DNA of 64,000 bases, taken from Rufibacter sp. LB8. Lineage in GTDB: Bacteria; Bacteroidota; Bacteroidia; Cytophagales; Hymenobacteraceae. Positions 1,627 to 61,870 of the stretch are shown here, piece by piece. The first letter of the stretch is position 1. Each line of letters starts with the position of its first letter. A model generated the notes under the pieces. It did no database searches. It was given only the letters and a program-made list of their open reading frames with translations, and had not been told where the DNA came from. Location: NCBI RefSeq assembly GCF_014876185.1, contig NZ_JADALJ010000001.1, positions 186,001-250,000 on the forward strand, written 5' to 3'. The translations under genes and the position numbers were made by a program.

Positions 1627-1667
1627 CCTGTTTTCGGGCTCATTTCTGAAAACGAGCCCGAAAACGG
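1627..1667. repeat. Family-A palindrome copy 1
   Basis: Arms CCTGTTTTCGGGCTC and GAGCCCGAAAACGG around a short TTTCTGAAAAC centre. It is 54 bp after the stop of the frameshifted gene and upstream of the large ATPase. Confidence 0.9.
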
Positions 1668-1710
1668 AAATTTTACAACAGTACCGCTTCACCCGCAGCA
1701 ATAAAAAAAA

Positions 1711-1745
1711 GCCCCCTCTCTGTGGGAGAGGGGTTGGGGGTGAGG
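1711..1745. repeat. Family-B C/G-rich repeat
   Basis: Contains CCCCTCTC, a TGTG loop, GGAGAGGGG and then a G-rich tail. In reverse complement it matches the copies at 9808-9856 and 22948-22990. It lies directly before the ATPase start, and an in-frame GTG inside it (1722) would give a false longer N-terminus. Confidence 0.8.
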
Positions 1746-1760
1746 TCCAATTCAACCACC

Positions 1761-4700
1761 ATGTCTGCATCCACCACCACTCCTGACGCGTCTACTTCTT
1801 CTGTTCAACTGGAAGGCGGCACCTATGAAATCCTGCGCAACCGCCTATCTAAAAGCGGAAATGAGCTGCGTGGGCTGCTGGACCAACTAAACCAGGAACG
1901 CAAAGAAGTTTTCGGGGCGATTGAGACCAAGCTGCTGGCCACCGAGCGCGTGACCACCGAGCACAACTGCGTGCCCTATGACATGGTGCCCGTGGGCGAT
2001 CTGCTGCTCTTCGGGTACAACGTGCACCTGGGCCTGAAAACCGAGGTGGAGCTCAGCGATGTGTTCAGCGTGTACCGCTATGAAGGCCACCAGTTCCACC
2101 ACCAGCCGCTGGACCTCATCCAGAACGCCACCTTTTCAGACGAATTCCAGAAACTCTACAAATACTACAAGAACACCCAGTTTGTGAAGTTTGCCGTGCA
2201 GGGCGTGCACCTGTTCATGGTGTTCCGGATTGGCAAGGGCGTCAATGACATCAAAACGTTCAAGTGGGCCCTGCAGGCCGGCACGCTCACGTACCTGGAC
2301 AACCGCTCTGACCACGAGTACACGTTTCCGAACCAGCATGATTTCGCCTGGACCCGGGTTACCCGCGAGGCGCACCGCAAAGGCAAGCACCCACACATTT
2401 CTATTGAAGACAAGGTGTTTGTGGAAACCATTGGCGGCGACCTCACTATTAAAGTAGAAGATAACACCGAGACTGGCCAGGGAATTTATTCAGAACCGGT
2501 AGAAGACAAAGACCAGACCCTGGATGACTCAGAACTGTATTATGCTGTCATCGGGAATCTTATCTTGCTCAAAATCAGGCCGTACCGCGAGAACGCTTAC
2601 CGATACGTGGTCTACAACGCCAAACTCAAAGAAGCGCGCCGCATAGATGCCATACAAGATTGTTGCGTGTTTCTGCCGGAGGATCAGGGTATTATCTACG
2701 CGTACGGCTATTACCTGCAGACCGGCGAGTTCAAGAGTTTTGACAACGGCCTGCAGGAAATGCTGTTTGAGAAGCGCATCACCTCGCCCAACGGCGAAGA
2801 TTTCCTGTACGTCTTTTACAACAAGCAGAGCGGCGTGTATCTGCTGCTGAGCTACAACCTCATCACCCAGAAAATTGAGAGCCCCATCATCTGCCACGGA
2901 TACGCCATCTATGAAAACGGTGAGCTCTGTTATTTCCGGGCCGACGAGGAACCCAAGAAACACCACGCGCTGCAAATCTGGCAAACGCCGTACATCGGCA
3001 GCAACTTCACCATTCCGGTCACCAAAGAGAGTTTCCTGTACAAGATTGGCAACAAGGAAATTGTGCGGGCCATGGCCGAATGCACCGAGATTCTGACCCT
3101 TGTTAACAAGGAAGATTCCTATGACAACCTTTACCTGGACCTCATCAAAAGCACCACAGATGTCCTGGATTCCTACCATTGGCTAACCAAGGGAGAAACC
3201 TTTGAACTGGCGCAGCCGCTGGGCGCCATCAGGCAGACGGCCACCGCGGCGGTAGAAGAGTTTGAGAAAGTCATCAGCATTAGAAAAAGCACGCAGGTGC
3301 AAGTTGACCAGGTACTCGGCTCCGCCGATGCGTTGTTAGCTCAACTAAAACTCCAAAGCAACGGGCACATCAATGATTTTGTGAAGGCCCTGGCAGATTT
3401 GCGAAAGGTCCGCGGCGAAGTGATTTCTTTAAAAGAACTGCGCTACGCAGATGTGCCCCGCATTGAGAACTATGAAACTCAGTTGCAAAACTTCTGGCAG
3501 GAAATAGCCAACCAAACGGTAGATTTCCTGCTAAAGCCCGATGCCCTGGTGCCCTATGAACAGCGCGTGGCGGAAATTACGGAGGGCATAGACCAGATCG
3601 CCAAAGTGGTGGATGCTGATGCCACCGAGAAGGAGATTGCGGGCGTGAGCACTGAATTGGAGATGCTCATTGAGATTGTCAGCAACCTCAAGATTGAAGA
3701 CGCCACCCAAACCACCCGCATCGTTGACGCCATTTCCACCATTTACGGGTCGTTCAATAAAACCAAGGCCACCCTTAAACGCAAACGGCAGGACCTGCTG
3801 AGCGCCGAAGGCCAGGCCGAATTCAACGCCCAGATCAAACTCATCAGCCAGAGCGTTATCAACTTTCTGGATGTCTGCGACACGCCCCAGAAATGCGATG
3901 AGTTCCTCACCAAGCTCATGGTACAGCTAGAGGAACTGGAAGGGAAATTCTCTGAGTTTGATGCCTTCCTGGAAATTATTGCCGACAAACGCGAGGAGAT
4001 TTACAGCGCCTTTGAGAGCAAGAAAGTGGCCCTGCAGGAGGCCCGCAACAAACGCGCCACCACCCTGCAACAGGCCGCCGACCGCATTCTCAAAGCCGTG
4101 CAAAGCCGCATCAGCAAGCTGGAGACCGTGGCTGATATCAACGGGTACTTCGCCTCAGATTTGATGCTGGAGAAAGTGCGCGCTACCGTGGCCGAACTCC
4201 TGGCTATGGGTGACACCGTGAAAGCAGATTCCATCCAAAGTCGCCTGAAAACGCTGCGCGAAGACGCCGTGCGCCAGCTCAAAGACAAGAGCGAACTGTT
4301 TGTGGAGGGGCAAAACGTGCTCAAATTCGGGACGCACCATTTCACAGTGAACACGCAGCCGCTGGAACTTAGCATTGTGCACCGTGATGATGCCATGTAC
4401 TATCACCTCACCGGCACCAGCTTCTTTGAGAAAATAACCGATGAACGGTTTCTGAGTTACCGGCCCGTGTGGGAGCAAGCGCTCATCTCAGAAAATAACC
4501 AAGTGTACCGCGCTGAGTATTTAGCGTTCCAGATTCTGCAAGCCGCGCAAAACGCCAACAGCACTGCCCAGATAGAGGAAGGCCAGGAAGGGAAATTGCA
4601 GCTGTTGAACCTGGAGCAACTCTATAAACTGTCGCCGCCCGATGTCATTTCCTACGTGCAACAGTTCATGGCGTCAAGGTTCAACGAAGGCTACCTCAAA

Positions 4701-6740
4701 GGCGTGCATGACTATGACGCAGCTGTGATTTTGACCTCTCTGGTGCGCCTGTTCAAAACGGCAGATTTGCTCCGGTACCCGGCCGCAGACCGCGCGTTGG
4801 CCCGCTGTTTTTGGGCTCTGTTTCTCAAACAGGAGCAAAAACAGCTGTTCCACCACCAACTCAAAGGCGTGAGCGCCATTCTGCAGGTGTTCCCGGAAAC
4901 CCACCAGTTTGATGCCCTCAAAGCCGAATTGCAGCAGGAGTTACAGGGTTTCCAGCAGCAGACGAATTTCTTGCCGGAAGCCAATCCAACCTCGGCTGGT
5001 GATTACCTCTTTTTTGAACTCACCCGCGGTGACGGATTCATTACCAGCGCGCAGGCCGCGACTTTGGTACAGGATTTCCGGGATTTTCTGAGCCAGAGAA
5101 AAGCCTGGGAAAAATTTGAGACCTCGGCCCAGGCTCTGGAACACAACAAGCTGGAACAATTTGCCTTGCTGCAGCATTGGCTCCGGGCGTTTCTTTCCCA
5201 AACCAACCCAACGGCAGAAACGGCCTATGTGCCCGAGGCGGCTGCACTGTTATTGCTGCAAGACTTGAAACCGGCACAAGTGGTCACCGCTAACCTGCTG
5301 GAAACGTTGACGGGTTTGCAAGGCAGCCATGTCTTGCTGAAAGAGCAGCAGTACCAATTGCAGTTCCATCAGTTTCAGCAGAAGTTGGCGCAGTATGAAT
5401 CCGGGGTGGTGCCGCAGTACAAAGCCTTCCATGCGCTCAAGCACCAACTCACCGTGGCCTTTGAGGAAGAACTGCGCCTGCAGGAATTCAAACCGAAGGT
5501 GATGGCCTCTTTTGTCCGGAACCAGTTGATTGACCAGGTGTATTTGCCGCTCATAGGTGCCAACCTGGCCAAGCAGATGGGCACCGCCGGCGAAACCAAG
5601 CGCACCGATTTAATGGGTATGTTGCTCTTGCTGTCGCCGCCGGGTTACGGAAAGACCACGCTCATGGAGTACATCGCCAACCGCTTGGGCATTATCTTTA
5701 TGAAAATCAACGGTCCGGCCATTGGGCACCAGGTCACGGCGCTGGACCCCACCGAGGCCCCCAACGCCGCCGCCCGCGAAGAACTGGAGAAACTGAACCT
5801 GTCTTTTGAGATGGGCGACAACGTGATGATTTACCTGGACGATATTCAGCACTGCAACCCGGAGTTCCTGCAGAAATTCATTTCGCTCTGCGATGCCCAG
5901 CGCAAGATTGAGGGCGTGTACAAAGGCCGCAGCCGCACCTATGATTTCCGGGGCAAGAAAGTCTGCGTGGTCATGGCCGGGAACCCCTATACCGAGACCG
6001 GCGACAAGTTCCGGATCCCAGACATGCTGGCCAACCGCGCTGACATTTACAACCTGGGCGACATTCTAGGCGACACTGAGGACGTGTTCAAACTCAGCTA
6101 CATTGAGAACTCGCTTACTTCCAACGCCGTGCTGGCCAAGCTGGCCGCCAAAAGCCAGAAAGACGTGTACGCGTTGGTGAAACTGGCCGAGACCGGGAAC
6201 AACGAAGGCCTTGAACTGGAAGGCAACCACACCGCCGCCGAAATCAGCGAATATGTGGGCGTGCTCAAAAAACTCCTCACCATCAGAGACGTCATTTTGA
6301 AGGTAAACCTGGAGTACATCAAGTCTGCCGCGCAAGCCGACGAGTACCGCACCGAGCCGCCGTTCAAAATGCAGGGCTCGTACCGCAACATGAACAAGCT
6401 GGCCGAGAAAGTGATGCCGATTATGAACGAGGCCGAGTTGCACACGCTCATTTTGTCGCATTACCAGTCAGAATCTCAGACGCTCACTACCGGTGCCGAG
6501 GCCAACATGCTCAAATTCAAGCAACTCATCGGCGTAGCCACCGCAGAAGAAATCCAGCGCTGGGAAGACATCAAAACGGCCTTCATCAGGAACAACAAAC
6601 TCAAAGGCTTCGGCGACGGCAACCAGGTAGGGCAGGTGCTGGCCCAGATGGAGAACATCTCTGATGGTTTGGTTGGGATCAAGCAGGTGTTAGGGGAGCA
6701 ACGGAAGATGGAAAATAAGCTGGTGATAGGAGAAAACTAG
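1761..6740 (+). CDS. Giant DUF3686-type AAA+ ATPase ('DNA repair ATPase' family)
   Basis: A 1659-residue protein. The first 450 or so residues are beta-rich with repeated Tyr/aromatic strands, like a propeller and matching my memory of DUF3686. Residues about 500-870 are long charged coiled coil. A helical linker follows. The C-terminal part is an AAA+ module: Walker A SPPGYGKTT (K1298), Walker B VMIYLDDIQ (D1360, D1361) and a sensor-like VVMAGNPYTE, resembling MoxR/dynein-like ATPases. I chose the ATG at 1761 because the longer frame starts in a repeat. The family is often named 'DNA repair ATPase' without strong experimental support, so the role is unknown; the architecture suggests a large remodelling machine. 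Confidence 0.85.
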   Translation: MSASTTTPDASTSSVQLEGGTYEILRNRLSKSGNELRGLLDQLNQERKEVFGAIETKLLATERVTTEHNCVPYDMVPVGDLLLFGYNVHLGLKTEVELSDVFSVYRYEGHQFHHQPLDLIQNATFSDEFQKLYKYYKNTQFVKFAVQGVHLFMVFRIGKGVNDIKTFKWALQAGTLTYLDNRSDHEYTFPNQHDFAWTRVTREAHRKGKHPHISIEDKVFVETIGGDLTIKVEDNTETGQGIYSEPVEDKDQTLDDSELYYAVIGNLILLKIRPYRENAYRYVVYNAKLKEARRIDAIQDCCVFLPEDQGIIYAYGYYLQTGEFKSFDNGLQEMLFEKRITSPNGEDFLYVFYNKQSGVYLLLSYNLITQKIESPIICHGYAIYENGELCYFRADEEPKKHHALQIWQTPYIGSNFTIPVTKESFLYKIGNKEIVRAMAECTEILTLVNKEDSYDNLYLDLIKSTTDVLDSYHWLTKGETFELAQPLGAIRQTATAAVEEFEKVISIRKSTQVQVDQVLGSADALLAQLKLQSNGHINDFVKALADLRKVRGEVISLKELRYADVPRIENYETQLQNFWQEIANQTVDFLLKPDALVPYEQRVAEITEGIDQIAKVVDADATEKEIAGVSTELEMLIEIVSNLKIEDATQTTRIVDAISTIYGSFNKTKATLKRKRQDLLSAEGQAEFNAQIKLISQSVINFLDVCDTPQKCDEFLTKLMVQLEELEGKFSEFDAFLEIIADKREEIYSAFESKKVALQEARNKRATTLQQAADRILKAVQSRISKLETVADINGYFASDLMLEKVRATVAELLAMGDTVKADSIQSRLKTLREDAVRQLKDKSELFVEGQNVLKFGTHHFTVNTQPLELSIVHRDDAMYYHLTGTSFFEKITDERFLSYRPVWEQALISENNQVYRAEYLAFQILQAAQNANSTAQIEEGQEGKLQLLNLEQLYKLSPPDVISYVQQFMASRFNEGYLKGVHDYDAAVILTSLVRLFKTADLLRYPAADRALARCFWALFLKQEQKQLFHHQLKGVSAILQVFPETHQFDALKAELQQELQGFQQQTNFLPEANPTSAGDYLFFELTRGDGFITSAQAATLVQDFRDFLSQRKAWEKFETSAQALEHNKLEQFALLQHWLRAFLSQTNPTAETAYVPEAAALLLLQDLKPAQVVTANLLETLTGLQGSHVLLKEQQYQLQFHQFQQKLAQYESGVVPQYKAFHALKHQLTVAFEEELRLQEFKPKVMASFVRNQLIDQVYLPLIGANLAKQMGTAGETKRTDLMGMLLLLSPPGYGKTTLMEYIANRLGIIFMKINGPAIGHQVTALDPTEAPNAAAREELEKLNLSFEMGDNVMIYLDDIQHCNPEFLQKFISLCDAQRKIEGVYKGRSRTYDFRGKKVCVVMAGNPYTETGDKFRIPDMLANRADIYNLGDILGDTEDVFKLSYIENSLTSNAVLAKLAAKSQKDVYALVKLAETGNNEGLELEGNHTAAEISEYVGVLKKLLTIRDVILKVNLEYIKSAAQADEYRTEPPFKMQGSYRNMNKLAEKVMPIMNEAELHTLILSHYQSESQTLTTGAEANMLKFKQLIGVATAEEIQRWEDIKTAFIRNNKLKGFGDGNQVGQVLAQMENISDGLVGIKQVLGEQRKMENKLVIGEN

Positions 6741-6761
6741 CGAAGGCACGGTGGCCTATGT

Positions 6762-6950
6762 TGTGCGTAGAGTTAGCGACAGCGCTCTACGCATTTCTGT
6801 GGCCGCCAATCTCCAGATTGGCGTGTACTCATTATTGCTCGGCTTCAGCAAAAGCAATTGGCAAGTCTACAGATCCATTGTAAAATTTTGCCAATCAGGA
6901 GATTGGCTTTTAGGTAGGTACGTAGAGCGCTGCCGCTAACTCTACGCACA
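6762..6950. mobile_element. MITE-like foldback element, 30-bp terminal inverted repeats
   Basis: The left end (6762-6791, starting TGTGCGTAGAGTTAGCG) and the right end (6921-6950, inverted) match at 29 of 30 bases. A second inverted pair lies inside: GCCAATCTCCAGATTGGC near 6806-6823 and its near-complement at 6890-6907, each half itself a small palindrome. There is no coding potential. I see no clear target-site duplication. It fills most of the 320-bp gap after the ATPase gene. Confidence 0.8.
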
Positions 6951-7061
6951 TCCTTACCAACATTACGTACATGGCCGGAATATCAAAGTTGCGCAATTGA
7001 GAGGTGGAAAAGGTACAGCCTGCTTCGGTGGGGCCATTCACTAAAAAAGGAAATTCAGATA

Positions 7062-8220: not shown

Positions 8221-8266
8221 AAGCCGTTTTCGGGCTCATTTTCAGAAATGAGCCCGAAAACGGCTT
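8221..8266. repeat. Family-A palindrome copy 2
   Basis: A perfect palindrome including the flanks: AAGCCGTTTTCGGGCTC and GAGCCCGAAAACGGCTT, 23 bp after the DinB stop. A short T-run follows at about 8277-8282, so this copy could act as a terminator. Confidence 0.95.
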
Positions 8267-9740: not shown

Positions 9741-9778
9741 CGTTTTCGGGCTCTGTTTTGGAAATGAGGGTGAAACCG
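9741..9778. repeat. Family-A palindrome copy 3 (degenerate)
   Basis: The left arm CGTTTTCGGGCTC is intact. The right arm (GAGGGTGAAACCGG) is decayed. It is 60 bp after the desaturase stop. Confidence 0.6.
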
Positions 9779-9867: not shown

Positions 9868-10298
9868 CATTGGCAGAGACTCTCGTAGGAGCTTCGCACA
9901 CTACGAGGTCTTTGAGCAAGCGTTCGTCGGTTCCTCCACCGTAGAGACAAGGCAGTGCCTGGTCTCTACAACCAGTACACGCATTTCCCAGTTTAGGCTC
10001 CATTTCCAATTCAGAGCCCGGAAACGCAATTGTCGCAGACCACACAGGTTTTAGAAACCTGTGAAGTCTTTTGAATTGGCGACACTGCTGATGCCCAAAA
10101 CGCAGACTGCCTAACAACTAGCACCTTTTCCAGCCTTTCCATCGAGCGCCTCGCGGGTTGGCCTTGTATGGCCAGGGCTAAAAGAAGAGAACAGCTATGG
10201 CCAAGACGGGCAGTGCGAGAGGGGAAGGCGGTGCCTCGCGGCCGTGAGCGCTCGGAGCCCAGCTATGGAAAGGGCCGCCTTGTAGAACTTAGGATGCA
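9868..10298 (+). repeat. Composite intergenic repeat, copy 1
   Basis: Module B (9868-9976, starting near TGGCAGAGACTCTCGTAGGA) is about 90% identical to the reverse complement of 17147-17260. Next come a degenerate family-A palindrome (9991-10026) and a perfect hairpin (CACAGGTTT, TAG, AAACCTGTG at 10043-10063). Module A (10126-10298) matches the reverse complement of 16962-17048 but has about 80 extra bases lying between two near-identical GCCTCG-containing sites. Module order is the same in both copies. Short frames here (for example 10168-10368) are not genes. Confidence 0.85.
9991..10026. repeat. Family-A palindrome copy 4 (degenerate)
   Basis: GTTTAGGCTCCATTTCC and CAGAGCCCGGAAACG, a decayed copy inside the composite element. 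The other composite copy has a family-A palindrome at the same relative place (17101-17137). Confidence 0.55.
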
Positions 10299-10429: not shown

Positions 10430-10634
10430 AATGAATAAGCAAAGTATGAATCTTCGTTAGATCCTTCGACAGGCTCAGGATGACTTTGGTGGGCTGATGG
10501 TTGAAAGATTTACAGCAGGAAGTTTTTAACTCGGTTTTGAATACCTACAAAGGCAGGTTAAACAGAGTAATAGCCTAAACAAAACAACAGGCTAAACTGA
10601 GCGGCAAGGCTACAATTTCAGTCAAAATAGTCCT

Positions 10635-10952: not shown

Positions 10953-11000
10953 AACCCCGTTTTCGGGCTCATTTCTGGAAATGAGCCCGAAAACGGGGTT
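10953..11000. repeat. Family-A palindrome copy 5 (perfect, 48 bp)
   Basis: The flanks extend the palindrome: AACCCCGTTTTCGGGCTC and GAGCCCGAAAACGGGGTT. It is 36 bp beyond the stop of the gene at 11036. Confidence 0.95.
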
Positions 11001-12605: not shown

Positions 12606-12854
12606 TGGATTGCATTTTGGGGCTTGATGACGCAGGCAAACAGATATGGCTTTTTTCTCTGCTGGCAATAGTGTAGATTCTCCACTAAAGATCTTTGTAT
12701 GCCCGTCTGGTAAAAACATCTATCCTGCCCACCACCATCAGGGTCACAAAATACGTCTCATCTGGAGGGTTTCTGCGGAAATGGCTTATGGGTCAGAATT
12801 ACCTTTTACTACGGCAGAAGCTTCCGGAAGGCACAGGCCTCTGGCGCGCGGGAA

Positions 12855-12892
12855 CGTTTTAAGCCCCATTTCCGGAATTGAGCCAAAAAACG
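12855..12892. repeat. Family-A palindrome copy 6 (degenerate)
   Basis: CGTTTTAAGCCCC and GAGCCAAAAAACG around ATTTCCGGAATT. It is 51 bp beyond the stop of the gene at 12943. Confidence 0.6.
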
Positions 12893-12942
12893 GATAGGAC
12901 AGAAAATGCCCTCTCTGTTGCGTGGGGGTTGACTTTAATAAT

Positions 12943-13377: not shown

Positions 13378-13820
13378 GGCGATGGGTAGTTTTGTAGTAC
13401 ATGAAATATTAAATAATTTAAAAAAATGGGTATGTCAGGCGGCCAAAGCGTGAGGTAGGCCAGGTATTGTTATGTCTGCGTCTGTGTTTTTTGTTATACT
13501 CAAAACAAGTAAAAAAGTATGCATGTGTCGCTATATTTATCGCGGGAAAAAACAAAATTTTCTGTAGTTAACATAACGGCGTGGGTGGCCAAAGAAAGAT
13601 GGACAAGTATAGGAGAAGGGAATTTCTGCCGGAGTGATTTCCAGAAGCGGAATTACAGAAGGGAGGGCACGACAGAGCACGTGTTTTAGGGCTCATTTTC
13701 AGAAATGAGGCCTAAAACGGGAAAACACTTTTTGTAAAGCTGGAAAACTTGGCGCGTGTTGTAGTATACTGACCGAAGGATTTCCAGAGAAAGAAAAATC
13801 TACGGCAGAACGATAAAAAA
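13378..13820. other. AT-rich gap between the STAS-like genes
   Basis: 443 bp. The part next to 13377 is AT-rich (TTAAATAATTTAAAAAAATG) and should contain the promoter of the minus-strand gene. A family-A palindrome lies at 13683-13718. No gene is seen. Confidence 0.5.
13683..13718. repeat. Family-A palindrome copy 7
   Basis: Arms GTTTTAGGGCTCATTT and AAATGAGGCCTAAAAC. The C:G pair of the consensus is replaced by A:T on both arms, a compensated change. It is 103 bp beyond the stop at 13821. Confidence 0.9.
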
Positions 13821-15653: not shown

Positions 15654-15747
15654 GATATAAATGGTTAGATATAGAGATGTTTTGATATACGCGAACGCCT
15701 CTACACGGGTTGAACAACCAGCCATGGTATTTATACCCTTTTTTTGC

Positions 15748-15786
15748 GTTTTTGGGCTCTGTTTTCATAATGCGCTTGAAAACAGA
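15748..15786. repeat. Family-A palindrome copy 8 (degenerate)
   Basis: CGTTTTTGGGCTC and GCGCTTGAAAACAG. It is 45 bp beyond the stop of the J-domain gene. Confidence 0.6.
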
Positions 15787-17100: not shown

Positions 17101-17137
17101 CGTTTTCGGGCTCTGGACTGGAAATGAAGGCGAAACT
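17101..17137. repeat. Family-A palindrome copy 9
   Basis: CGTTTTCGGGCTC and GAAGGCGAAAC around GGACTGGAAAT. Partly decayed, nested in composite copy 2. Confidence 0.65.
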
Positions 17138-17303
17138 GGAATTCTGTTGCTGGTTGTAGAGACAACGCACTGCCTTGTCTCTACGGTGGAGGTCCCGAAA
17201 AACGCTTGCTCAGAAGACCTCGTAGCGTGCGCAGCTCCTACGAGTGTCTCTGCCAAAGAATCTCCTTAAGCAACTCCCAGAATACAAGAAATTTTGCAGT
17301 TCC

Positions 17304-17339
17304 GTTTTTGGCTTCATTTCCGGAAATGAAGCCAAAAAC
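17304..17339. repeat. Family-A palindrome copy 10 (variant arms, perfect)
   Basis: GTTTTTGGCTTCATTTCC and GGAAATGAAGCCAAAAAC. Both arms carry the TGGCTTC variant, so the palindrome remains perfect. It is 30 bp beyond the pepD stop. Confidence 0.92.
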
Positions 17340-17368
17340 AGCACCTTACCTTAAAGGACCATCAACCA

Positions 17369-18829: not shown

Positions 18830-18962
18830 GGTTTTCTGGTTTAAAGATGTACTGCCCGCAGCTTCAAGTAGATGAAAAACAAGGGCAGCAGGGGATACTT
18901 GCACGGTAAAGGTACTAAACACATTCGACTCCGTTCGGGCAAAAACCTGTTTTGAGGCGTCT

Positions 18963-19000
18963 GGTTTCGGCTTCATTTCCAGTTTAGAGGCCAAAAACGG
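18963..19000. repeat. Family-A palindrome copy 11 (degenerate)
   Basis: GGTTTCGGCTTC and GAGGCCAAAAACGG. It lies in the divergent region between pepD and the MDR gene, one of the few copies not behind a gene. Confidence 0.6.
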
Positions 19001-20102: not shown

Positions 20103-20231
20103 ATCAATAGGCCCTGGCTTTAGCCAGGGTAAAATGGAAATAACATTTATCGGCTTTAGCCAAACTAGTTTTTTGGCTAAAGCCGATTTTGACTCTTTGC
20201 GTTACCCTGGCTACAGCCTGGGCCTATTGAT
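20103..20231. mobile_element. MITE-like foldback element, 30-bp terminal inverted repeats
   Basis: Ends 20103-20132 (ATCAATAGGCCCTGGC...) and 20202-20231 (inverted) match at 28 of 30. An inner perfect hairpin has arms ATCGGCTTTAGCCAAA (20148-20163) and TTTGGCTAAAGCCGAT (20172-20187) with an 8-base loop. No coding potential. The whole element could form a long cruciform or RNA hairpin. Same architecture as 6762-6950 but unrelated sequence. Confidence 0.85.
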
Positions 20232-20520: not shown

Positions 20521-20562
20521 TGTCCGTTTTTGGCCTCATTTTCAGAAATGAGCCCGAAAACG
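20521..20562. repeat. Family-A palindrome copy 12 (mixed arms)
   Basis: Left arm TCCGTTTTTGGCCTC (variant), right arm GAGCCCGAAAACGGA (main type), so two positions no longer pair. It is 91 bp upstream of the GH92 gene. Confidence 0.9.
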
Positions 20563-22996: not shown

Positions 22997-23035
22997 CGTT
23001 TTCGGGTTCAATTCTGGAAATGAGGCCGAAAACAG
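22997..23035. repeat. Family-A palindrome copy 13
   Basis: CGTTTTCGGGTTC and GAGGCCGAAAACAG around AATTCTGGAAAT. Two mismatched pairs. It is 49 bp after the GH92 stop and 46 bp before the next start. Confidence 0.85.
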
Positions 23036-25551: not shown

Positions 25552-25599
25552 TTTTCCGTTTTCGGGCTCAATTCAGGAAATGAGGCCGAAAACGGAAAA
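25552..25599. repeat. Family-A palindrome copy 14
   Basis: TTTTCCGTTTTCGGGCTC and GAGGCCGAAAACGGAAAA; one mismatched pair inside 48 bp. It begins 8 bp after the reductase stop. Confidence 0.93.
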
Positions 25600-26470: not shown

Positions 26471-26518
26471 ATTCCCGTTTTCGGGCTCATTTCTGAAAAT
26501 GAGCCCGAAAACGGGAAT
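26471..26518. repeat. Family-A palindrome copy 15 (perfect, 48 bp)
   Basis: ATTCCCGTTTTCGGGCTC and GAGCCCGAAAACGGGAAT. It fills the 62-bp space between two convergent stop codons (26458 and 26521), leaving 12 bp on one side and 2 bp on the other. Confidence 0.97.
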
Positions 26519-28838: not shown

Positions 28839-28876
28839 CGTTTTCGGGCTCTGTTTTGGAAATGAACCCCAAAATA
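28839..28876. repeat. Family-A palindrome copy 16 (partly decayed)
   Basis: CGTTTTCGGGCTC and GAACCCCAAAATAG around TGTTTTGGAAAT. It ends 3 bp before the GH92 start codon, so it would be in the 5' leader of that gene or cover its promoter. Confidence 0.75.
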
Positions 28877-28928: not shown

Positions 28929-28974
28929 TTTCCGTTTTTGGCTTCATTTCTGGAAATGAGCCCGAAAACGGAAA
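28929..28974. repeat. Family-A palindrome copy 17 (mixed arms)
   Basis: TTTCCGTTTTTGGCTTC and GAGCCCGAAAACGGAAA. The left arm is the variant type, the right arm the main type. It is 71 bp beyond the ACP-like stop. Confidence 0.9.
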
Positions 28975-29000
28975 AAGGCAGACGTAACGCCTGCCTTTTT
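28972..29000 (-). terminator. Hairpin terminator after the ACP-like gene
   Basis: Perfect 10-bp arms AAAAAGGCAG and CTGCCTTTTT with a 9-base loop. Read on the minus strand it ends in a U-run. It overlaps the tip of palindrome copy 17. Confidence 0.85.
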
Positions 29001-35821: not shown

Positions 35822-35869
35822 TTTTCTGTTTTAGGGCTCATTTCCAGAAATGAGCCCCAAAACAGAAAA
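35822..35869. repeat. Family-A palindrome copy 18
   Basis: TTTTCTGTTTTAGGGCTC and GAGCCCCAAAACAGAAAA; one pair mismatched. The flanks are TTTTCTG/CAGAAAA, different from other copies but self-complementary. Confidence 0.93.
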
Positions 35870-36062: not shown

Positions 36063-36593
36063 GGTGGTCTCAGGTAAAAGTAAAGGGTCAAACAAAAAAC
36101 GGACTATCTCCTACGGGAGAAGGCCATTGCCCTGGAGTTTCTGTTCTAACGCATTTTGCGGGAACTTAGCGTAAGATCGCTAAATTAAATTCAGAAAGAA
36201 ACCTCTTCAGACAATTAAATGCTTTACTGCAAGAACTATACCACAAGCAGGTTTCCTCGCCCGTACTTGTTGAAGGACTTTTAGGGGCTGGCCTATGGCA
36301 AAATCAGTGGAGCACAGCAGGAGAACCCAAATTGCTGGCTATTGTTTTCCTTCGTCTCTGTGAGGTAAAAGGGTGTTCCCCTGTTTTCGGGCTCATTTCT
36401 GAAAATGAGCCCGAAAACAGGGATGGTATCTCGTTGGTTGTTATTATTCAAAGAAAATCAGGGCGTTATTGAATTATATAGAGGAAGCGTAATTTTAGGC
36501 AAGGTGTTTGCTTTTTTAGAAGCAAGCGAAAAACCAGGCCAAGGCGCTTGCCCGGCTGTTCGCGCATCCCGTACTTTTAACGAACAGATACCC
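36063..36593. other. Divergent intergenic gap
   Basis: 530 bp between the mini-ORF and the DUF6600-type gene. It carries palindrome copy 19 (36379-36422). A frame open from 36405 starts on the palindrome (Met-Ser-Pro-Lys-Thr) and is considered false. No other gene is seen. Confidence 0.5.
36379..36422. repeat. Family-A palindrome copy 19 (perfect)
   Basis: CCCTGTTTTCGGGCTC and GAGCCCGAAAACAGGG. The right arm supplies the false ATG at 36405. It lies in a divergent region, not after a gene. Confidence 0.95.
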
Positions 36594-38530: not shown

Positions 38531-38570
38531 CTGTTTTCGGGCTCATTTCCTTAAATGAGCCCGAAAACAG
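38531..38570. repeat. Family-A palindrome copy 20 (perfect arms)
   Basis: CTGTTTTCGGGCTC and GAGCCCGAAAACAG around ATTTCCTTAAAT. The centre differs from most copies. It is 110 bp beyond the gltD stop, after a separate hairpin. Confidence 0.93.
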
Positions 38571-38597: not shown

Positions 38598-38634
38598 AAA
38601 ATCCCTGCCCTTTATTATGAGGAACAGGGATTTT
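38598..38634 (-). terminator. Hairpin terminator after gltD
   Basis: Arms AAAATCCCTG and CAGGGATTTT, 10 bp perfect, with U-rich flanks on the minus strand. It is 46 bp beyond the gltD stop. Confidence 0.85.
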
Positions 38635-44765: not shown

Positions 44766-44805
44766 CTGTTTTCTGCCTGTTTTTTAAAAATCAAGCCGAA
44801 AACAG
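44766..44805. repeat. Family-A palindrome copy 21 (degenerate)
   Basis: CTGTTTTCTGCCTG and CAAGCCGAAAACAG. Outer arms pair, the centre is A/T-rich and decayed. It is 117 bp beyond the stop at 44922. Confidence 0.6.
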
Positions 44806-45536: not shown

Positions 45537-45578
45537 CCGGTTTTCGGCCTGGTTTTCCAAAATGAGGCCCAAAACAGG
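45537..45578. repeat. Family-A palindrome copy 22
   Basis: CCGGTTTTCGGCCTG and GAGGCCCAAAACAGG; a few mismatched pairs. It is 121 bp beyond the RND stop and faces a second copy (45656-45695) across a terminator hairpin. Confidence 0.8.
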
Positions 45579-45610: not shown

Positions 45611-45647
45611 CAAGAAAGCCCCGGCCACCAGGGCTAGGGCTTTCCTG
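45611..45647 (-). terminator. Hairpin terminator of the second RND operon
   Basis: GAAAGCCC (45614-45621) and GGGCTTTC (45637-45644) with a GC-rich loop. Flanked on both sides by family-A palindromes. Confidence 0.7.
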
Positions 45648-45655: not shown

Positions 45656-45695
45656 CTGTTTTGGGCTTGATTTTCAAAAAACAGGCCGAAAACAG
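45656..45695. repeat. Family-A palindrome copy 23
   Basis: CTGTTTTGGGCTTG and CAGGCCGAAAACAG around ATTTTCAAAAAA. Partly decayed centre. It is 4 bp from the RND stop. Confidence 0.8.
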
Positions 45696-52170: not shown

Positions 52171-52216
52171 TTTCCGTTTTTGGCTTCATTTCTGGAAATG
52201 AGCCCGAAAACAGGAA
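52171..52216. repeat. Family-A palindrome copy 24 (mixed arms)
   Basis: TTTCCGTTTTTGGCTTC and GAGCCCGAAAACAGGAA. Variant left arm, main-type right arm. It is 4 bp from the YpdA-like stop. Confidence 0.9.
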
Positions 52217-56203: not shown

Positions 56204-56239
56204 AAAACGGCGGTTTCCTGTGAAGGAAGCCGCCGTTTT
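56204..56239 (+). terminator. Hairpin terminator after YceI
   Basis: AAAACGGCGGTTTCC and GGAAGCCGCCGTTTT (14 of 15 pairs) followed by a T-run. It is 20 bp after the stop. Confidence 0.9.
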
Positions 56240-56252: not shown

Positions 56253-56298
56253 TTTCCGTTTTCGGGCTCATTTCTGAAAATGAAGCCGAAAACGGAAA
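56253..56298. repeat. Family-A palindrome copy 25
   Basis: TTTCCGTTTTCGGGCTC and GAAGCCGAAAACGGAAA; one mismatched pair. It lies between convergent genes and is 18 bp from the bestrophin stop. Confidence 0.92.
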
Positions 56299-57176: not shown

Positions 57177-57282
57177 GCAGCGGTGTGTAAATAAGCAACT
57201 CTCAGCAAAACCTAGCAGCGGTTCACAGCCGCTACCCTTTGTCGAAAAGTTGAAATTAGTGTTTTCCGGGAAAAAGCGCTTC

Positions 57283-57320
57283 CGTTTTCGGGCTCATTTT
57301 CAGAAATGAGGCCAAAAACG
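57283..57320. repeat. Family-A palindrome copy 26
   Basis: CGTTTTCGGGCTC and GAGGCCAAAAACG around ATTTTCAGAAAT. Two mismatched pairs. Its last base touches the stop codon of the DUF1349 gene (57321). Confidence 0.92.
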
Positions 57321-57980
57321 CTACGGCTGAATTTTGTTGTACCTAATTTCTGAAAACAGCGTTTGGCAGCTTGGCCCTTTAGGCGATTGTACATAAAACC
57401 CCACGTGCATCTGGTCTGGCCGGTGGTACACAAACTGCCGAAGCACGGTCCAAGAGGTGCCGTCTGTGGACATGTAAAACGTGCCCACGTTGCCTTTTTT
57501 CAGAATCCGTAAATAGATTTCACGGGCTGCGCCAACAGAAAAATAGCTGTCATCTGTGCGGGAATTCTCTACCACTGAAAGTCCCAACACAGAACCGGAA
57601 CCGGTGTTTTGCAGCAAGACCTTCGCCCAGTTGCCGGTATCTGTCCAGATGAGGAGCGCGCCGCCGTCATAGAGGTTGTCATGGCTGGGCGCTACTTTCG
57701 CAGAAAAGTCGAAGTTCTGGTCTGGCGTGAATAAAAACTTGGGTGCATTGCTTTTCTGGAACGCCGCGCTGGCCGGGTTGTGCAAATCAGTGTTGCCTTC
57801 GGCTGTAAGCAAAACAGAATTCTCTGATAGCACTTTCACTTCACTGGGCTTGTCTAGCACCTGGCACACAAACGGAATGGCTTTTACCTGAAATGTGGCC
57901 GGCGTTTGACCAAGAGATGTTTCTGGTATGAAGCAAACCATTAACAGCAAAAGCAACAATTTCAGACGCGTAGTTGTCAT
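57321..57980 (-). CDS. Secreted DUF1349-type beta-sandwich protein
   Basis: 219 residues from the ATG at 57980 (MTTTRLKLLLLLLMVCFIPETSLGQ), giving a clear signal peptide. Mature part: KFLFTPDQNFDFSAKVAP, DGGALLIWTDTGNWAKVLLQ, GTFYMSTDGTSWTVLRQF and HVGFYVQSPKGPSCQTLFSEI are typical of DUF1349/concanavalin-like domains that bind or cut glycans or act as adhesive modules. Function unknown. Confidence 0.85.
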   Translation of the reverse strand: MTTTRLKLLLLLLMVCFIPETSLGQTPATFQVKAIPFVCQVLDKPSEVKVLSENSVLLTAEGNTDLHNPASAAFQKSNAPKFLFTPDQNFDFSAKVAPSHDNLYDGGALLIWTDTGNWAKVLLQNTGSGSVLGLSVVENSRTDDSYFSVGAAREIYLRILKKGNVGTFYMSTDGTSWTVLRQFVYHRPDQMHVGFYVQSPKGPSCQTLFSEIRYNKIQP

Positions 57981-58034
57981 GGGCAAAAAAGTAGGCATTG
58001 GCGGCAATGTTTGAGGAAATTTGAAGTTTTGCAG

Positions 58035-58080
58035 TTTCCGTTTTCGGGCTCATTTTCAGAAATGAGCCCGAAAACGGAAA
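58035..58080. repeat. Family-A palindrome copy 27 (perfect)
   Basis: TTTCCGTTTTCGGGCTC and GAGCCCGAAAACGGAAA, perfect over 46 bp. It is 70 bp beyond the ABC ATPase stop. Confidence 0.97.
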
Positions 58081-58149
58081 GTTATAAAAGCACCAGATTA
58101 AAGATACGTTTTCAAGGTTCAGGATTTTCAATTTCGGCAGGCTTTTACC

Positions 58150-59136
58150 TTACAGAAACCAAGGCTCCTTCGCGGAAAAACTGACAGAAACCAGGCCGCC
58201 TTTTTGCACGGTTGGGTGCAGCATTCTGGCTACTAAGATTGTGTCTGTCACATGGATTTCGGCTTCCCAAAAACTTCCGAAAAACGTCAGGGCCAGCACT
58301 TCACCGGTAGCGGCGGGAAGATTAGTTGTGGGTGAAATCTGGATATTTTCAGGCCGGAGAAAGAGGCGTTTCTGCGCGTTTTTTGCCTCGCTTTTTACAC
58401 CAAGTTTGGCTGCTAATTCGGCTGAAACCAAGTTGTATTTCCCGAACAAACCTGCCACGTATTCATTGGCTGGTTGGTAGTAAAGGTTTTGTGGGCTGGC
58501 TTTTTGTACCAGTTGGCCCTGTTGTAAGACCAGAATCTCATCTGCCCAGGAAAGCGTGTCCTGCGGGTCATGTGAAATCAAGAGGCAGGTAATGTCCAGT
58601 TGGTCGCCTATGTCTTTGATGACCTGTTTGAGCGCATTTTTATGAACGGTGTCCAGGTTAGAAAAGGGTTCGTCTAGGAGCAGCAGTGCCGGCGACGTAG
58701 TGAGCAACCGGGCCAAGGCAATGCGCTGTTTCTCACCGCCAGACAGTTCATCTGTACGGCGCTGGAGCAAATGTTCTATCTGGCAAATGTGGTAGATTTC
58801 CTGGGCTTCTTGTTCATCTAAAGAATTGGCGTAGCGCAAAGCCTGCTCCACACGCAGAAACTCGGGCAACTCAAAGTGCTGCGACAGGTAGGCAATGCCC
58901 GGGTGGCCGGCGACCAACTGTTCCTGGGGGCCAAACACGCGTTCCTCCTCAAAATACACCTGACCGCTGCTGGGCTGCACCAAACCGGCAATGATTTTGA
59001 GCAGCGTGCTTTTCCCGGAACCGGTTTCGCCGGCAATGGCCACCTTCTGGAACTGGTTTTGGGTGAAACTGATGTCCTGTAGAATATCGCCCTTCCCTTG
59101 GTTGCTACTTATATTTCTGACTTCTAGGAAAGGCAT
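58150..59136 (-). CDS. ABC transporter ATP-binding protein (Fe/sulfate/polyamine-type) without permease
   Basis: 328 residues. Walker A GETGSGKST, signature LSGGEKQRIALARLL, Walker B ALLLLDEPFSNLD, H-loop LISHD. After residue about 235 there is a regulatory TOBE-like beta domain (FLRPENIQISPTT, GEVLALTFFGSFWEAEIHVTD). This is the layout of FbpC/PotA-type importer ATPases. No permease or binding protein is adjacent; the partner must be elsewhere or missing. Confidence 0.9.
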   Translation of the reverse strand: MPFLEVRNISSNQGKGDILQDISFTQNQFQKVAIAGETGSGKSTLLKIIAGLVQPSSGQVYFEEERVFGPQEQLVAGHPGIAYLSQHFELPEFLRVEQALRYANSLDEQEAQEIYHICQIEHLLQRRTDELSGGEKQRIALARLLTTSPALLLLDEPFSNLDTVHKNALKQVIKDIGDQLDITCLLISHDPQDTLSWADEILVLQQGQLVQKASPQNLYYQPANEYVAGLFGKYNLVSAELAAKLGVKSEAKNAQKRLFLRPENIQISPTTNLPAATGEVLALTFFGSFWEAEIHVTDTILVARMLHPTVQKGGLVSVSFSAKEPWFL

Positions 59137-59196
59137 TTCTAATGGTTTCTGATGGAAAGAATGAAGTGTTGGCTCTGGTTTAAAACGGAAGGCATT

Positions 59197-60396
59197 TTAC
59201 GAAAGCGACATCCGGAACCAGGTATACAACAGCGCCGAAATATAGAACCCGGACAGCAGGGTAGAGCCAAGTTCAGGGTTTACAAACGCGGCTAAAATGG
59301 CAACCGCACCCAAAACCCCAATGGCTGAAGCCACATAGAAAGATTTTTTCCTTGATTTTTTATTAGACAATTGCAGCGTGCCCGCCACCGGGAACAACAT
59401 GCCCAACAACACCACGCCTATGGGAATGGCCTCTTCGATCCTAAAAATCTTGTTCACCGCCAAAGCGGAGATTCCGCCCAGGAACAAGGCTAAAAACAAG
59501 TTGGAGCCCTTGATTTCTTCCTGGTTCAAAACCATTCTTCCGTAGCGGTTAAACCGAAGTAAGGTGTTGAAAATGAGGTCTGAGAACCAGGAGAAAAAGA
59601 CCAGCATCAAATAAAACGGCAAGAGCAAGGGCATGACCCGCACCAAAACATAGACGCCAATAAACAAGGCCCACCTGGCCGCGCCACTGATGGAGGAGAT
59701 CTTAAAGCTGAACTGCAAAAAGGCCCGGTACACCCAATATTTCGCTTTCAGGGCTTCTAACAACCCTTCGCGGGCGAACTCTGAGGTAGGGTCTAGGCGC
59801 AGCGCTTCCTGAAAATGCTGCAAGGCCAGTTTGTGTTCGTTCTGCTCCAGGTACACCCAGCCTTGGTTGGCATGGGTTTCATGGTTCTCTGGCGCATGCT
59901 GAAACGCATTAGTAAACGATTGATTGGCCAGGTTTTTCTCGCCCAGGCGGTTTAAGGCGCGGGCCTGCAGGTTCAGGCAATCTACGTCTTCGGGGTCCAG
60001 GGCTAAGCCTAGATTAGCAGCATCTAAGGCCTTTTGCCAGGCGCGCCGCCTGAAATGGATGTTGCCTAGTATGTGGTAAAAAGCCGCTTCCTCAGGGTCT
60101 AATTCCAGGGCTTCTTTAATGGCAGCCTCGCTTTCTTTCAGGCGATCTTCATCAAAGTGGATGACGCTCAAAATATAATGGGCGAAGGCTAAATCTGGTT
60201 CCTCGGCAATGGCGAGTTGTGCTTCTTGCTGGGCCTCTTTGAATTTCTTGAGGTTGGCCAGGCAAAGCGCCAGGTACGCGTGGTTGAGGGCGTTGTGAAT
60301 ATCCTGGGTGAGGGCGCTGCGCAGTTCTTTTTCGGCCAGGTCAAACTTGCCCTGCTGAATAAGCAACAGGGCCCGGCTTTGGTACATTGCTTCCAT
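59197..60396 (-). CDS. TPR protein with C-terminal membrane domain
   Basis: 399 residues. About six tetratricopeptide repeats (residues 5-215; repeats such as ALNHAYLALCLANLKKFKEA, AFYHILGNIHFRRRAWQKAL and ETHANQGWVYLEQNEHKLAL). Four or five membrane helices follow (about 235-395). It follows the TPR-AAA gene after 5 bp, so it is in one operon with it. A membrane anchor for the AAA partner is a plausible guess, not proven. Confidence 0.85.
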   Translation of the reverse strand: MEAMYQSRALLLIQQGKFDLAEKELRSALTQDIHNALNHAYLALCLANLKKFKEAQQEAQLAIAEEPDLAFAHYILSVIHFDEDRLKESEAAIKEALELDPEEAAFYHILGNIHFRRRAWQKALDAANLGLALDPEDVDCLNLQARALNRLGEKNLANQSFTNAFQHAPENHETHANQGWVYLEQNEHKLALQHFQEALRLDPTSEFAREGLLEALKAKYWVYRAFLQFSFKISSISGAARWALFIGVYVLVRVMPLLLPFYLMLVFFSWFSDLIFNTLLRFNRYGRMVLNQEEIKGSNLFLALFLGGISALAVNKIFRIEEAIPIGVVLLGMLFPVAGTLQLSNKKSRKKSFYVASAIGVLGAVAILAAFVNPELGSTLLSGFYISALLYTWFRMSLS

Positions 60397-60401
60397 AAAA
60401 G

Positions 60402-61745
60402 TTATTTCTTTAGGCCCAGGTAGTCCAGGATTTCGTCATACAGGCCGTTTTCATTGGAGTACAACGCGTAGTTGCGGGCCGTCCCGAACCATTCTTTGGT
60501 AGAAGGCCGCACCTGGTCCACCGCTTTGCTCAAATCATTCTGCTCCAGCGGCAGCGCCACGCCTTTTTTCATGGATTCGCGCAGCTTTTGCTCCACGGCC
60601 ACGTCTACCACGGCTTTCAAATCTGCCCCGGAGAAATCTTTGGCTTTTTTGGCGAGGGCCTCGGTGTTGAGTTTGTGGGTGGGTTTGCCTTCCAGCATCA
60701 CGTCCAGAATAGTTTGGCGGGCCGGTTGGTCGGGTGGCGTCACAAACACAATGCGGTCAAAACGCCCCGGCCGCCGGAACGCCGAGTCCATGTTCCAGGG
60801 CGTGTTGGTGGCAGCCAGAATCAGAACGCCTTCATTAGAATATTCTACGCCGTCTAGCTCAGACAAGAATTGGTTGATGAGGTGCCGGCCGCCGCTTTTG
60901 CGCATATCGTTACGGCTGGCGCCCAGGGCGTCTACTTCGTCAAAAAACAACACGCAGGGTGCCTGGGCGCGGGCCAGTTCAAAGACCTGGTGCAGGTTTT
61001 TCTCTGAGTTGCCAATCCACATGTCCAGTATGTCATTGATGCCCACCGAGATAAACGACGCGTTCACCTCACCGGCTGTGGCGCGGGCCAACAAGGTTTT
61101 CCCGCAGCCCGGCGGACCGTACATCAGGATTCCGCCGCCAATTTTCTTGCCGTAGGCCTTGTACAAATCTGGGTGCTTTAGCGGATGGATGATTTTCATC
61201 TCAATCTCCTCTTTCACCTTTTCCATGCCGCCCACATCTTTGAATTTGATGGTGGGTCTTTCAACCTGGCTGCTGGTTTCAATGGCCTGCGCTTCTGAAG
61301 GCACTTTCAAGTCTTGGGCCGATACGCCGGGGTGCGCCTGCGCCATAATTTCTGCCTCCAATGCCGCATCTTGCAAACCGGGGTTTTGGCTGGTGGCCTG
61401 GCGGTATTTCTCCAGGGCTTGTTCCGGTTCTTGCGTGGCCAGCAGGAGGCGGGCGTGCAGCAAATCCACTTCGGCGGGGCTATAATCTGAGGTGTGCAAC
61501 TCTTCTACCACCACAAACGCCGCTGAGTATTTGCCGCGTTTGAAAAAGGTTTGAGCCAGCTGCAATTTCAGGGAATTATCTTGCGGGGCGTGGGGCAAGG
61601 CCAGGAGTAAGTGAGCTTCGGCTTCTTCCAGCTTGTTAAGCTTGGTATAAATAGCAGCCACGTGTTTGCGTAGCGGCACATTGTCGGGTGAAAACGATAA
61701 GGCTTCCAGCAAGGCGGGCAGCGCGGCCTCTTCAGATGGGGTCAT
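60402..61745 (-). CDS. TPR-AAA+ ATPase (Cdc48/FtsH-like AAA domain)
   Basis: 447 residues. N-terminal TPR-like helices (1-150), then a classical AAA domain from about residue 165: IKFKDVGGMEKVKEEI, Walker A YGPPGCGKTLLAR (near 210-222), Walker B VLFFDEVDALG, second region of homology AFRRPGRFDRIVFV, then a helical lid. No protease or membrane segment. TPR in front of AAA suggests a substrate-binding adaptor. The next gene starts 5 bp later and is a TPR membrane protein. Confidence 0.9.
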   Translation of the reverse strand: MTPSEEAALPALLEALSFSPDNVPLRKHVAAIYTKLNKLEEAEAHLLLALPHAPQDNSLKLQLAQTFFKRGKYSAAFVVVEELHTSDYSPAEVDLLHARLLLATQEPEQALEKYRQATSQNPGLQDAALEAEIMAQAHPGVSAQDLKVPSEAQAIETSSQVERPTIKFKDVGGMEKVKEEIEMKIIHPLKHPDLYKAYGKKIGGGILMYGPPGCGKTLLARATAGEVNASFISVGINDILDMWIGNSEKNLHQVFELARAQAPCVLFFDEVDALGASRNDMRKSGGRHLINQFLSELDGVEYSNEGVLILAATNTPWNMDSAFRRPGRFDRIVFVTPPDQPARQTILDVMLEGKPTHKLNTEALAKKAKDFSGADLKAVVDVAVEQKLRESMKKGVALPLEQNDLSKAVDQVRPSTKEWFGTARNYALYSNENGLYDEILDYLGLKK

Positions 61746-61830
61746 GGGTTGTACGCTTGATTTGGTCTTGTTAAGGTACCACTATTTTTTAAGTTGAGCC
61801 AACGGGGCAGCGGCAAAACCCGCTCCGTTT

Positions 61831-61870
61831 CCGTTTTCGGCCTCATTTCCAGAAACAAGGCCAAAAACGG
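61831..61870. repeat. Family-A palindrome copy 28
   Basis: CCGTTTTCGGCCTC and AAGGCCAAAAACGG around ATTTCCAGAAAC. Variant on both arms with one or two mismatches. Its last base is one base from the stop of the gene at 61872. Confidence 0.9.

Follow-up and report, generated by a model that had tools for sequence, protein, structure and literature searches.

A 38-bp palindrome of fixed geometry at gene ends in the genus Rufibacter: candidate sites for a DNA-binding protein

The palindrome described here is restricted to the genus Rufibacter and sits at gene ends, with a fixed geometry, an obligatory dyad, positions that are conserved between species and a dialect that changes in place. Our preferred reading, which may well be right although we would not yet rely on it, is that the approximately 1,900 palindromes are dyad sites on duplex DNA for a putative protein at transcription-unit ends. 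Full-text literature searches revealed no description of this repeat, and Rfam at the gathering score gave 0 matches in the window (the whole 64-kb stretch of DNA analyzed).

A framework-only pattern found 1,938 copies in the genome that contains the window (LB8; 4.59-Mb chromosome) and 1,145 to 2,512 in all 15 other Rufibacter genomes, compared to 13 to 41 matches for the reversed pattern in Rufibacter and counts near background in 43 genomes of other genera. A covariance model search, limited to 150 scored candidates per genome, also found the palindrome spread genus-wide; the per-genome copy numbers rest on the pattern counts and not on this model. Scanning genome contigs for the exact core of the LB8 dialect gave 0 matches in a set from which the LB8 genome may itself be absent. 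Copies are not clustered (spacing of ≤150 bp in 7/294; median, 1.8 kb). The 60 kb of plasmid C2 that was examined contained only 2 matches and the AT-rich stretch L015 no standard copy; recent expansion into new DNA is therefore not in evidence.

In the window, 27 copies were recovered at ≥24/34 arm matches and 26 at ≥25/34, close to the roughly 28 counted in the sequence-only reading, while shuffled sequences at the latter threshold gave 0 copies (one shuffle of each of 21 sequences). The density here is one site per 2.4 kb, and the 13-mer alone gave 44 matches with ≤2 mismatches against 2.1 expected. The copies from the arm-match scan are listed below, with no strand assigned; G006 is another species, and a stop given as lying "before" a copy is one that the copy follows when the gene is read in its own direction.

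1629-1666, palindrome copy
8225-8262, palindrome copy, perfect arms, paired flanks; stop 26 bp before (31 bp in G006)
9741-9778, palindrome copy; stop 59 bp before (60 bp at the G006 orthologous gene)
10958-10995, palindrome copy, perfect arms
12855-12892, palindrome copy; stop 50 bp before
13682-13719, palindrome copy; stop 101 bp before
15747-15784, palindrome copy; stop 46 bp before
17101-17138, palindrome copy, weak
17303-17340, palindrome copy; stop 28 bp before
18962-18999, palindrome copy, weak; divergent genes on either side
20525-20562, palindrome copy
22997-23034, palindrome copy; stop 48 bp before
25557-25594, palindrome copy; stop 12 bp before (25 bp in G006)
26476-26513, palindrome copy, perfect arms, paired flanks; convergent genes, stops 17 and 7 bp away
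28839-28876, palindrome copy
28933-28970, palindrome copy
35827-35864, palindrome copy; divergent genes on either side
36382-36419, palindrome copy; divergent genes on either side
38532-38569, palindrome copy; gltD-type gene ends 110 bp before
44767-44804, palindrome copy, weak; stop 117 bp before
45539-45576, palindrome copy; stop 122 bp before
45657-45694, palindrome copy; RND pump stop 4 bp before
52175-52212, palindrome copy; stop 7 bp before
56257-56294, palindrome copy; convergent genes, stops 72 and 21 bp away
57283-57320, palindrome copy touching a stop codon
58039-58076, palindrome copy, perfect arms; stop 73 bp before
61832-61869, palindrome copy; stop 2 bp before

With our own gene calls, a stop is found no more than 25 bp from 7/27 copies and no more than 122 bp from 18/27, slightly fewer than the 8 within 25 bp and 22 within about 120 bp claimed from the letters alone, and 3/27 lie between divergent genes. 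The cases said to touch a stop were correct, at 0 bp (57283-57320), 2 bp (61832-61869), 4 bp (45657-45694) and 7 bp (52175-52212 and 26476-26513). The separate terminators reported beside some copies were borne out in part: there is a hairpin at 56204 and a terminator-like site (45617-45635) near 45611, but near 28972 we find only a weak 5-pair site (28976-28992), and at 38598 there is none, the scan near this position flagging the palindrome itself (38531-38570) as terminator-like.

The claimed length of 36 to 48 bp gives way to a constant dyad of 38 bp, [C/T]GTTTT-N8-TTT-NNNN-AAA-N8-AAAAC[G/A]; what stands of the longer figure is that flanks pair as well, partly by consensus and partly in a locus-specific manner. 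The correct spacer between the arms is 4 bases, and searching the LB8 genome with a 3-base spacer hit 1 place. Arms matching at ≥15/17 have a partner arm at exactly +21 in 404/408 cases, which leaves solitary arms (4/408) practically absent. Within each half, two T-tracts are spaced by approximately one turn of the helix. The flank columns of 180 copies lean to TTTC/GAAA and then have no fixed letters. Perfect palindromes are in excess, with 80/299 against 41 expected in LB8 and 30/158 against 3.4 expected in G006, and in this subset the locus-specific flanks pair too, over up to 14 bp.

The suggestion of a 3'-end element is supported. Among copies facing a stop in the LB8 sample, 107/256 lie within 25 bp of it compared to 7% under random placement, so that placement relative to gene ends is not random; the positions are common to several species, and only 3/180 copies are inside called genes. 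Convergent spaces are the richest, with 1.08 copies per space, an approximate figure like the start distances, since the gene caller was crude (coding fraction of 0.73); stops should be more reliable. The TG-centered orientation has no strand preference (34 same and 43 opposite in tandem spaces, 21 and 20 in convergent ones), nor is it consistently biased across the samples of the chromosome in a way that would reflect replication.

Positions are shared across species. For 86 testable ortholog pairs between LB8 and G006, a copy was found behind both genes in 37, behind the LB8 gene only in 14, behind the G006 gene only in 11 and behind neither in 24 (Fisher P = 3e-4), and for 18 of the 37 the distance to the stop differs by no more than 10 bp between the species (shuffled mean of 6.5, with 0/5,000 shuffles as high). 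At individual loci, the site at 52175-52212 has a copy in 3/3 other species (8 bp in G005, -7 in G006 and 55 in G010); the RND pump gene has one at 3 bp in G008, 11 bp in G002 and 47 bp in G010 and none in 4/7 other species; of 9 other species, 6 have one 70 to 140 bp behind the gltD-type gene (4/6 low scoring, 26 to 28) and 3 have none; and G006 and G013 have no copy behind the left gene of the pair around 56257-56294. In the closer pair G007 and G013, whose aligned DNA is 82% identical, 44/52 copies were called in both, and among the 8 called in one only, the alignments showed a subthreshold counterpart for 3 and an unrelated palindrome for 1.

Conservation exceeds that of the flanks and is independent of pairing. 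Each alignment used a copy as its anchor, and the comparison with the flanks was made with both gap treatments: when gaps count as mismatches at all 52 places, identity is 0.81 for the element and 0.65 for the adjoining 20 bp, and on ungapped elements or columns it is 0.86 and 0.75. In 40 ungapped pairs, identity is 0.91 in the framework and 0.80 at other positions, the former value being flattered by the selection of copies on framework or pairing score. Copies that are badly paired in both species are as conserved (0.87; n = 18) as well-paired ones (0.85; n = 16). Between deeper lineages, positions are common above chance, and the arm middles have been respelled into another dialect across the whole genome: at the diagnostic positions of 24 loci shared with G006, the LB8 copy matches the LB8 consensus at 0.78 and the G006 consensus at 0.11. 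The individual loci keep no memory of the earlier spelling (0.363 compared to 0.351 when shuffled). G007 and G013, which have one dialect, keep locus memory (0.803 versus 0.622 shuffled).

To account for this, we infer a putative sequence-specific protein, present throughout Rufibacter, that would bind each site as a dimer or a dimer of dimers on double-stranded DNA, with the two T-tracts per half as constant contact points. Sites occupied by the protein, lying as they do just downstream of stop codons or where convergent genes meet, might mark or insulate transcription-unit ends in both directions, possibly as a roadblock to read-through or as an anchor for a topoisomerase or the nucleoid. 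Drift in the preference of the protein within one lineage would be followed in place by the middle bases at every site, which would give rise to dialects. A separate process, arm-to-arm copying during replication, which is possible because the sites are quasi-palindromes, may occasionally perfect a copy and extend into its flanks. The genus-restricted counts far above the reversed pattern, the exact +21 partner, the closeness to stops without strand preference, the positional sharing in both species pairs with conservation above flanks irrespective of pairing, and the dialect switch without locus memory argue for such a protein. Against it, a pure binding site needs no perfect subset with pairing flanks, the mismatches described below lean as a role in the transcript would predict, and closeness to stop codons is more natural for an effect on RNA or translation than for a DNA site. 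Loss of spare intergenic DNA by deletion could also yield closeness to stop codons.

We consider it rather improbable that the palindrome is transcribed behind the stop codon as a hairpin and, in the manner of Escherichia coli REPs, blocks exonucleases, serves as a processing site or slows translation. The position at stop codons and the lengthening of the stem by the flanks fit it, as do some compensatory changes (10 Watson-Crick-to-Watson-Crick double changes between G007 and G013 versus 4.0 shuffled, with a maximum of 10 in 500, and a covariation score in alignment A1 reached by 1/500 shuffles), but pairs changed on both sides in A1 do not exceed the shuffles (9 versus 10.1) and several middle positions of the arms do not covary. 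Covariation of the arms, a check proposed with the sequence-only reading, is present but limited to some positions, and it comes chiefly from the perfect copies, which are a minority. In copies no more than 60 bp from a stop, sense-strand G-U mismatches outnumber A-C mismatches by 283:219 (ratio of 1.29; P = 0.005), a count with closer stops and more species than a first version that gave 224:209 and 141:138. This excess is strongest at 21 to 60 bp, reverses beyond 60 bp, is about that of ordinary terminators (72:54; P = 0.13, a control of low power) and may reflect transcription-linked mutation. Predicted terminators often precede the palindrome (54/87), badly paired copies are no less conserved, and an RNA hairpin requires neither constant T-tracts nor a lineage-wide spelling; a stabilizer of mRNA ends, one of the roles first suggested, is therefore not established. 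That the palindrome is a bidirectional intrinsic terminator is highly implausible, even though it can form a hairpin and convergent spaces are richest in copies. In most classes, T-runs within 30 nucleotides are slightly commoner on the sense side than on the antisense one. The difference is largest (0.56 versus 0.22; n = 9) for those perfect G006 copies in tandem spaces whose flanks also pair, and the sense value for the corresponding convergent copies is 0.43 (n = 7), but a T-run follows only 4 to 35% of copies in the main classes, and LB8 tandem perfect copies have 0.23 sense versus 0.25 antisense. Nor was the palindrome seen to substitute for terminators in LB8 or G006, where genes with a copy have a separate terminator beside them no less often than genes without one (LB8 convergent, 26/98 versus 5/36; LB8 tandem, 21/127 versus 9/87; G006 convergent, 27/74 versus 6/32; G006 tandem, 13/69 versus 8/74).

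It is less likely than a protein site, yet deserves some weight, that the palindrome is REP-like: a nonautonomous hairpin that a single-strand transposase or some other factor dispersed in the distant past, and may still be dispersing, and that was tolerated and kept chiefly behind genes, with dialects as successive families that replace each other in place. It resembles REPs as characterized in passages of PMC3733652 and PMC2817692 in its number of copies, in its location outside genes at their 3' ends and in having a sequence particular to each lineage; the perfect LB8 copies with uniform arms could be young, and Y1 transposase genes occur in 15/16 Rufibacter genomes (45 matches). At the 33 of these 45 loci examined, however, the palindrome is at background density (7.9 per 20 kb), and copies within 200 bp on both sides were found at only 2/33; G007, with 1,496 framework copies, has no Y1 match. 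The flanking of Y1 genes by the palindrome, suggested from the letters alone as a check, is not borne out at these loci, and mobilization by a RAYT was rejected, as the Y1 genes present are not associated with the palindrome. In LB8, the Y1 gene L021 (147 amino acids) does have copies within 200 bp on both sides and adjoins a different hairpin, CCCTGGCTTTAGCCAGGG. One of the genes neighboring L021 is a DUF983 gene and not a transposase. Further points against a REP-like repeat are that no GTAG or CGTC tag appears in the flank columns of the 180 copies, that there is neither BIME-like clustering nor a sign of recent spread, and that 44/52 copies are called in two species with conservation above the flanks. 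A sequence that serves DNA uptake or another kind of self-recognition and differs in dialect between species, as do the DUS of Neisseriaceae and the USS of Pasteurellaceae, would also explain some 2,000 copies and common positions despite changed spelling, and we regard it as very improbable. A single DUS is a functional unit, whereas solitary arms are practically absent here. Many DUS occur as inverted pairs that are linked to terminators, which favors the comparison, but intragenic DUS are common (both in passages of PMC3630211), whereas the palindrome nearly avoids called genes.

Returning to the putative DNA-binding protein, we put forward tentatively, and with more doubt than the sites themselves, a genus-specific punctuation in which some 2,000 gene-end dyads would be read by one dedicated protein whose changing specificity rewrites the array lineage by lineage, a cistrome far above those of ordinary regulators. 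If so, a considerable fraction of the gene ends in every Rufibacter genome would be marked by a single kind of site whose copies evolve together. This would offer a natural experiment in the coevolution of a trans-acting factor with thousands of sites and could point the way to a factor that acts at gene ends in Bacteroidota. Were the palindrome REP-like instead, it would still be an abundant family without the known tag or a linked Y1 transposase and with positions conserved across species, and it would bring the long-standing question of the function of such palindromes within direct reach of a test.

Among known systems, an intrinsic terminator is a stem followed by a sense-strand U-run, which the palindrome mostly lacks, the small G006 subsets of perfect copies with paired flanks being the exceptions. 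Chromosome-organizing arrays such as parS, matS, KOPS and gyrase-binding BIMEs are likewise dispersed short sites, several with dyad symmetry, but the Rufibacter palindrome is far more numerous, is tied to gene 3' ends, shows no orientation to the replication strand and has a putative reader. With DUS and USS it shares a very high copy number, species dialects and the frequent inverted pairs near gene ends; it differs in that its dyad is obligatory, with fixed spacing, and nearly absent from genes, and it is not known to take part in uptake. REPs and BIMEs come closest: they too are short palindromes with lineage-specific sequences, number in the hundreds to thousands, and lie outside genes, mostly on the downstream side of coding regions. 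The Rufibacter palindrome, in contrast, has no GTAG or CGTC tag, is unclustered and unlinked to Y1 genes, and is a strict 38-bp dyad with constant T- and A-tracts whose positions are kept while its genome-wide spelling changes. It works like a REP but stands outside the described REP families.

The palindrome for which the sequence-only reading had proposed about 28 copies was counted 27 times within the 64-kb window; a stricter score retained 26 copies and found none in shuffled sequence, and the 13-base arm core gave 44 matches in the window compared to 2.1 expected. In place of the proposed length of 36 to 48 bp, the unit is constant at 38 bp, with two 17-base arms around a 4-base centre, in an alignment of 180 copies (the first own-genome sample, copies with another spacer falling outside this count). 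Of the 180, 137 have TG or CA as the middle two bases of this centre; a single copy with a 3-base centre was also encountered. In 764 kb, the partner arm lies at +21 for 404 of 408 arms matching at least 15 of 17 bases, and solitary arms are practically absent.

The position of the copies relative to genes, with gene spaces assigned by a home-made gene caller, is far from random. The 180 copies divide into 53 convergent, 97 tandem and 21 divergent (31, 84 and 56 expected by available space), with another 3 lying inside genes and 6 at the ends of stretches. A larger own-genome sample has 256 copies facing a stop and 43 between divergent genes. The distances from stop to copy in the 256 peak at 0 to 10 bp, and 107 (42%) are at most 25 bp away, compared to 7% under random placement, which corroborates the clustering behind stop codons noted earlier. 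The TG orientation showed no preference for gene direction in the 180 copies or, judged by eye, for replication direction.

Of 19 chromosomal stretches sampled in this genome, 18 had a density of 5 to 11 copies per 20 kb; the remaining one, the AT-rich L015 (G000:C1:3460001-3480000; 20 kb, G+C 0.456), has zero standard copies and is probably a recently acquired island. Plasmid C2 gave 2 matches within the 60 kb sampled. Allowing up to 3 mismatches, the core as spelled here occurs 922 times in the genome, 0 to 3 times per genome among 15 other Rufibacter genomes and in none of the 23 genomes searched in other genera. When only the constant T/A-tracts (the framework) were specified, with up to 2 mismatches and the reversed pattern as a control, there were 1,938 matches in this genome and 1,145 to 2,512 in the 15 others (reversed pattern, 13 to 41). 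Beyond Rufibacter, framework counts were near background in the 43 genomes examined from elsewhere in its family and order; G025, of the same order, showed the largest excess (157 versus 77 reversed). Five sister genera, sampled over 400 kb, yielded no framework palindrome.

The Rufibacter genomes differ in the spelling of the arm middles, although the consensus for some species rests on only 6 to 17 copies:
Rufibacter sp. LB8, consensus arm CGTTTTCGGGCTCATTTC
G007 and G013, two species sharing one dialect, CGTTTTTGGCCTGTTTTC
G006, CGTTTTAGGCCTGTTTTC
G005, CGTTTAGGGGCTGTTTTT
In L185, a stretch of G015, the genome of another Rufibacter species, a perfect copy in the LB8 dialect lies at 5179-5216 and a similar second copy at 5355-5392, 176 bp off, possibly through horizontal transfer or ancestral variation.

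At gltBD and other ortholog pairs, the same gene ends often hold a copy at a like distance while others hold none; a copy follows gltD in 6 of 9 species and an RND gene in 3 of 7. Between LB8 and G006, 111 orthologs were found, 25 of which were dropped for too little space; of the 86 compared, 37 had a copy in both, 14 in LB8 only, 11 in G006 only and 24 in neither. Distances to the gene agreed within 10 bp in 18 of the 37 (6.5 when shuffled). At 24 shared loci, the copies matched their own genome's spelling at 0.78 and 0.72 of the diagnostic positions and the other genome's at 0.11 and 0.10, and no locus memory was found between these two genomes (0.363 alike versus 0.351 shuffled; P 0.22). 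With each locus in its own genome's spelling and without memory, we infer that the site set was re-spelled in place between lineages; independent gains repeated at the same spots are a possible alternative. Within one dialect, G007 and G013 retain locus memory (0.803 versus 0.622 shuffled).

An alignment of G007 with G013 covered 138 kb at an overall identity of 0.816, and copies were called in both genomes at 44 of 52 places. Over all 52, identity was 0.81 in the element and 0.65 in the 20-bp flanks with gaps counted as mismatches, and 0.86 and 0.75 with gaps left out; the 40 ungapped pairs gave 0.91 at framework positions and 0.80 elsewhere. Identity did not depend on whether the arms paired well or badly. 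At one aligned gene end, near 7109 of L167 (G007), a near-perfect palindrome of different sequence stands where G013 has the standard one.

Base pairing between the arms was borne out for a minority of copies only. In a survey that scored copies without requiring pairing, perfect copies (all 8 middle pairs) numbered 80 of 299 in LB8 (41 expected) and 30 of 158 in G006 (3.4 expected), whereas pairing in the majority was close to independence in both. The locus-specific flanks of perfect copies also pair, for up to 13 bp in LB8 and 14 bp in G006. Quasi-palindrome correction by template switching provides a route for arm-to-arm copying, and we read the perfect copies as occasional events of this kind rather than steady stem selection, with selection of long stems possible at some loci.

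Counts of sense-strand G-U to A-C mismatches were 224:209 for tandem and 141:138 for convergent copies in a first test. They were 283:219 (p 0.005) within 60 bp of unambiguous stops in four genomes, the ratio reversing beyond 60 bp (172:227, bins summed); ordinary terminators, as a control, gave 72:54. Predicted terminators precede the palindrome in 54 of 87 cases, and no substitution of the palindrome for terminators was found. We favour recognition on duplex DNA by a putative reader because of the constant T-tracts, the obligatory dyad and the conservation regardless of pairing. REPs of Escherichia coli that lie 15 nt or less from a stop are described as affecting translation (PMC12306157), and an effect of this type is possible for the copies closest to stops.

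Other repeats were also seen. At 20103-20231 of the window lies another type of hairpin element, whose arms contain CCCTGGCTTTAGCCAGGG; the same hairpin adjoins, around 1960-2030 of stretch L021, the gene for a 147-amino-acid Y1 (IS200-like) transposase; from this adjacency, it may be a non-autonomous element of that transposase. Intergenic stretches at 9920-9970 and 10455-10485 of the window resemble dispersed repeats, as spotted by eye only. Repeat-like intergenic stretches also lie at 12823-12912 and 17682-17741 of L070; a search of six genomes found the first again in five and the second in four, at 72 to 93% identity.

The palindrome is like REPs in abundance and genomic place but differs in having no GTAG/CGTC tag, flanking RAYT or BIME clustering, and an Rfam search of the window matched no family; for these reasons, it appears to act in a REP-like manner but to lie outside the described REP families. 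It resembles DUS in having dialects (as described for DUS in PMC3630211) but differs from them in its unit and its genic placement.
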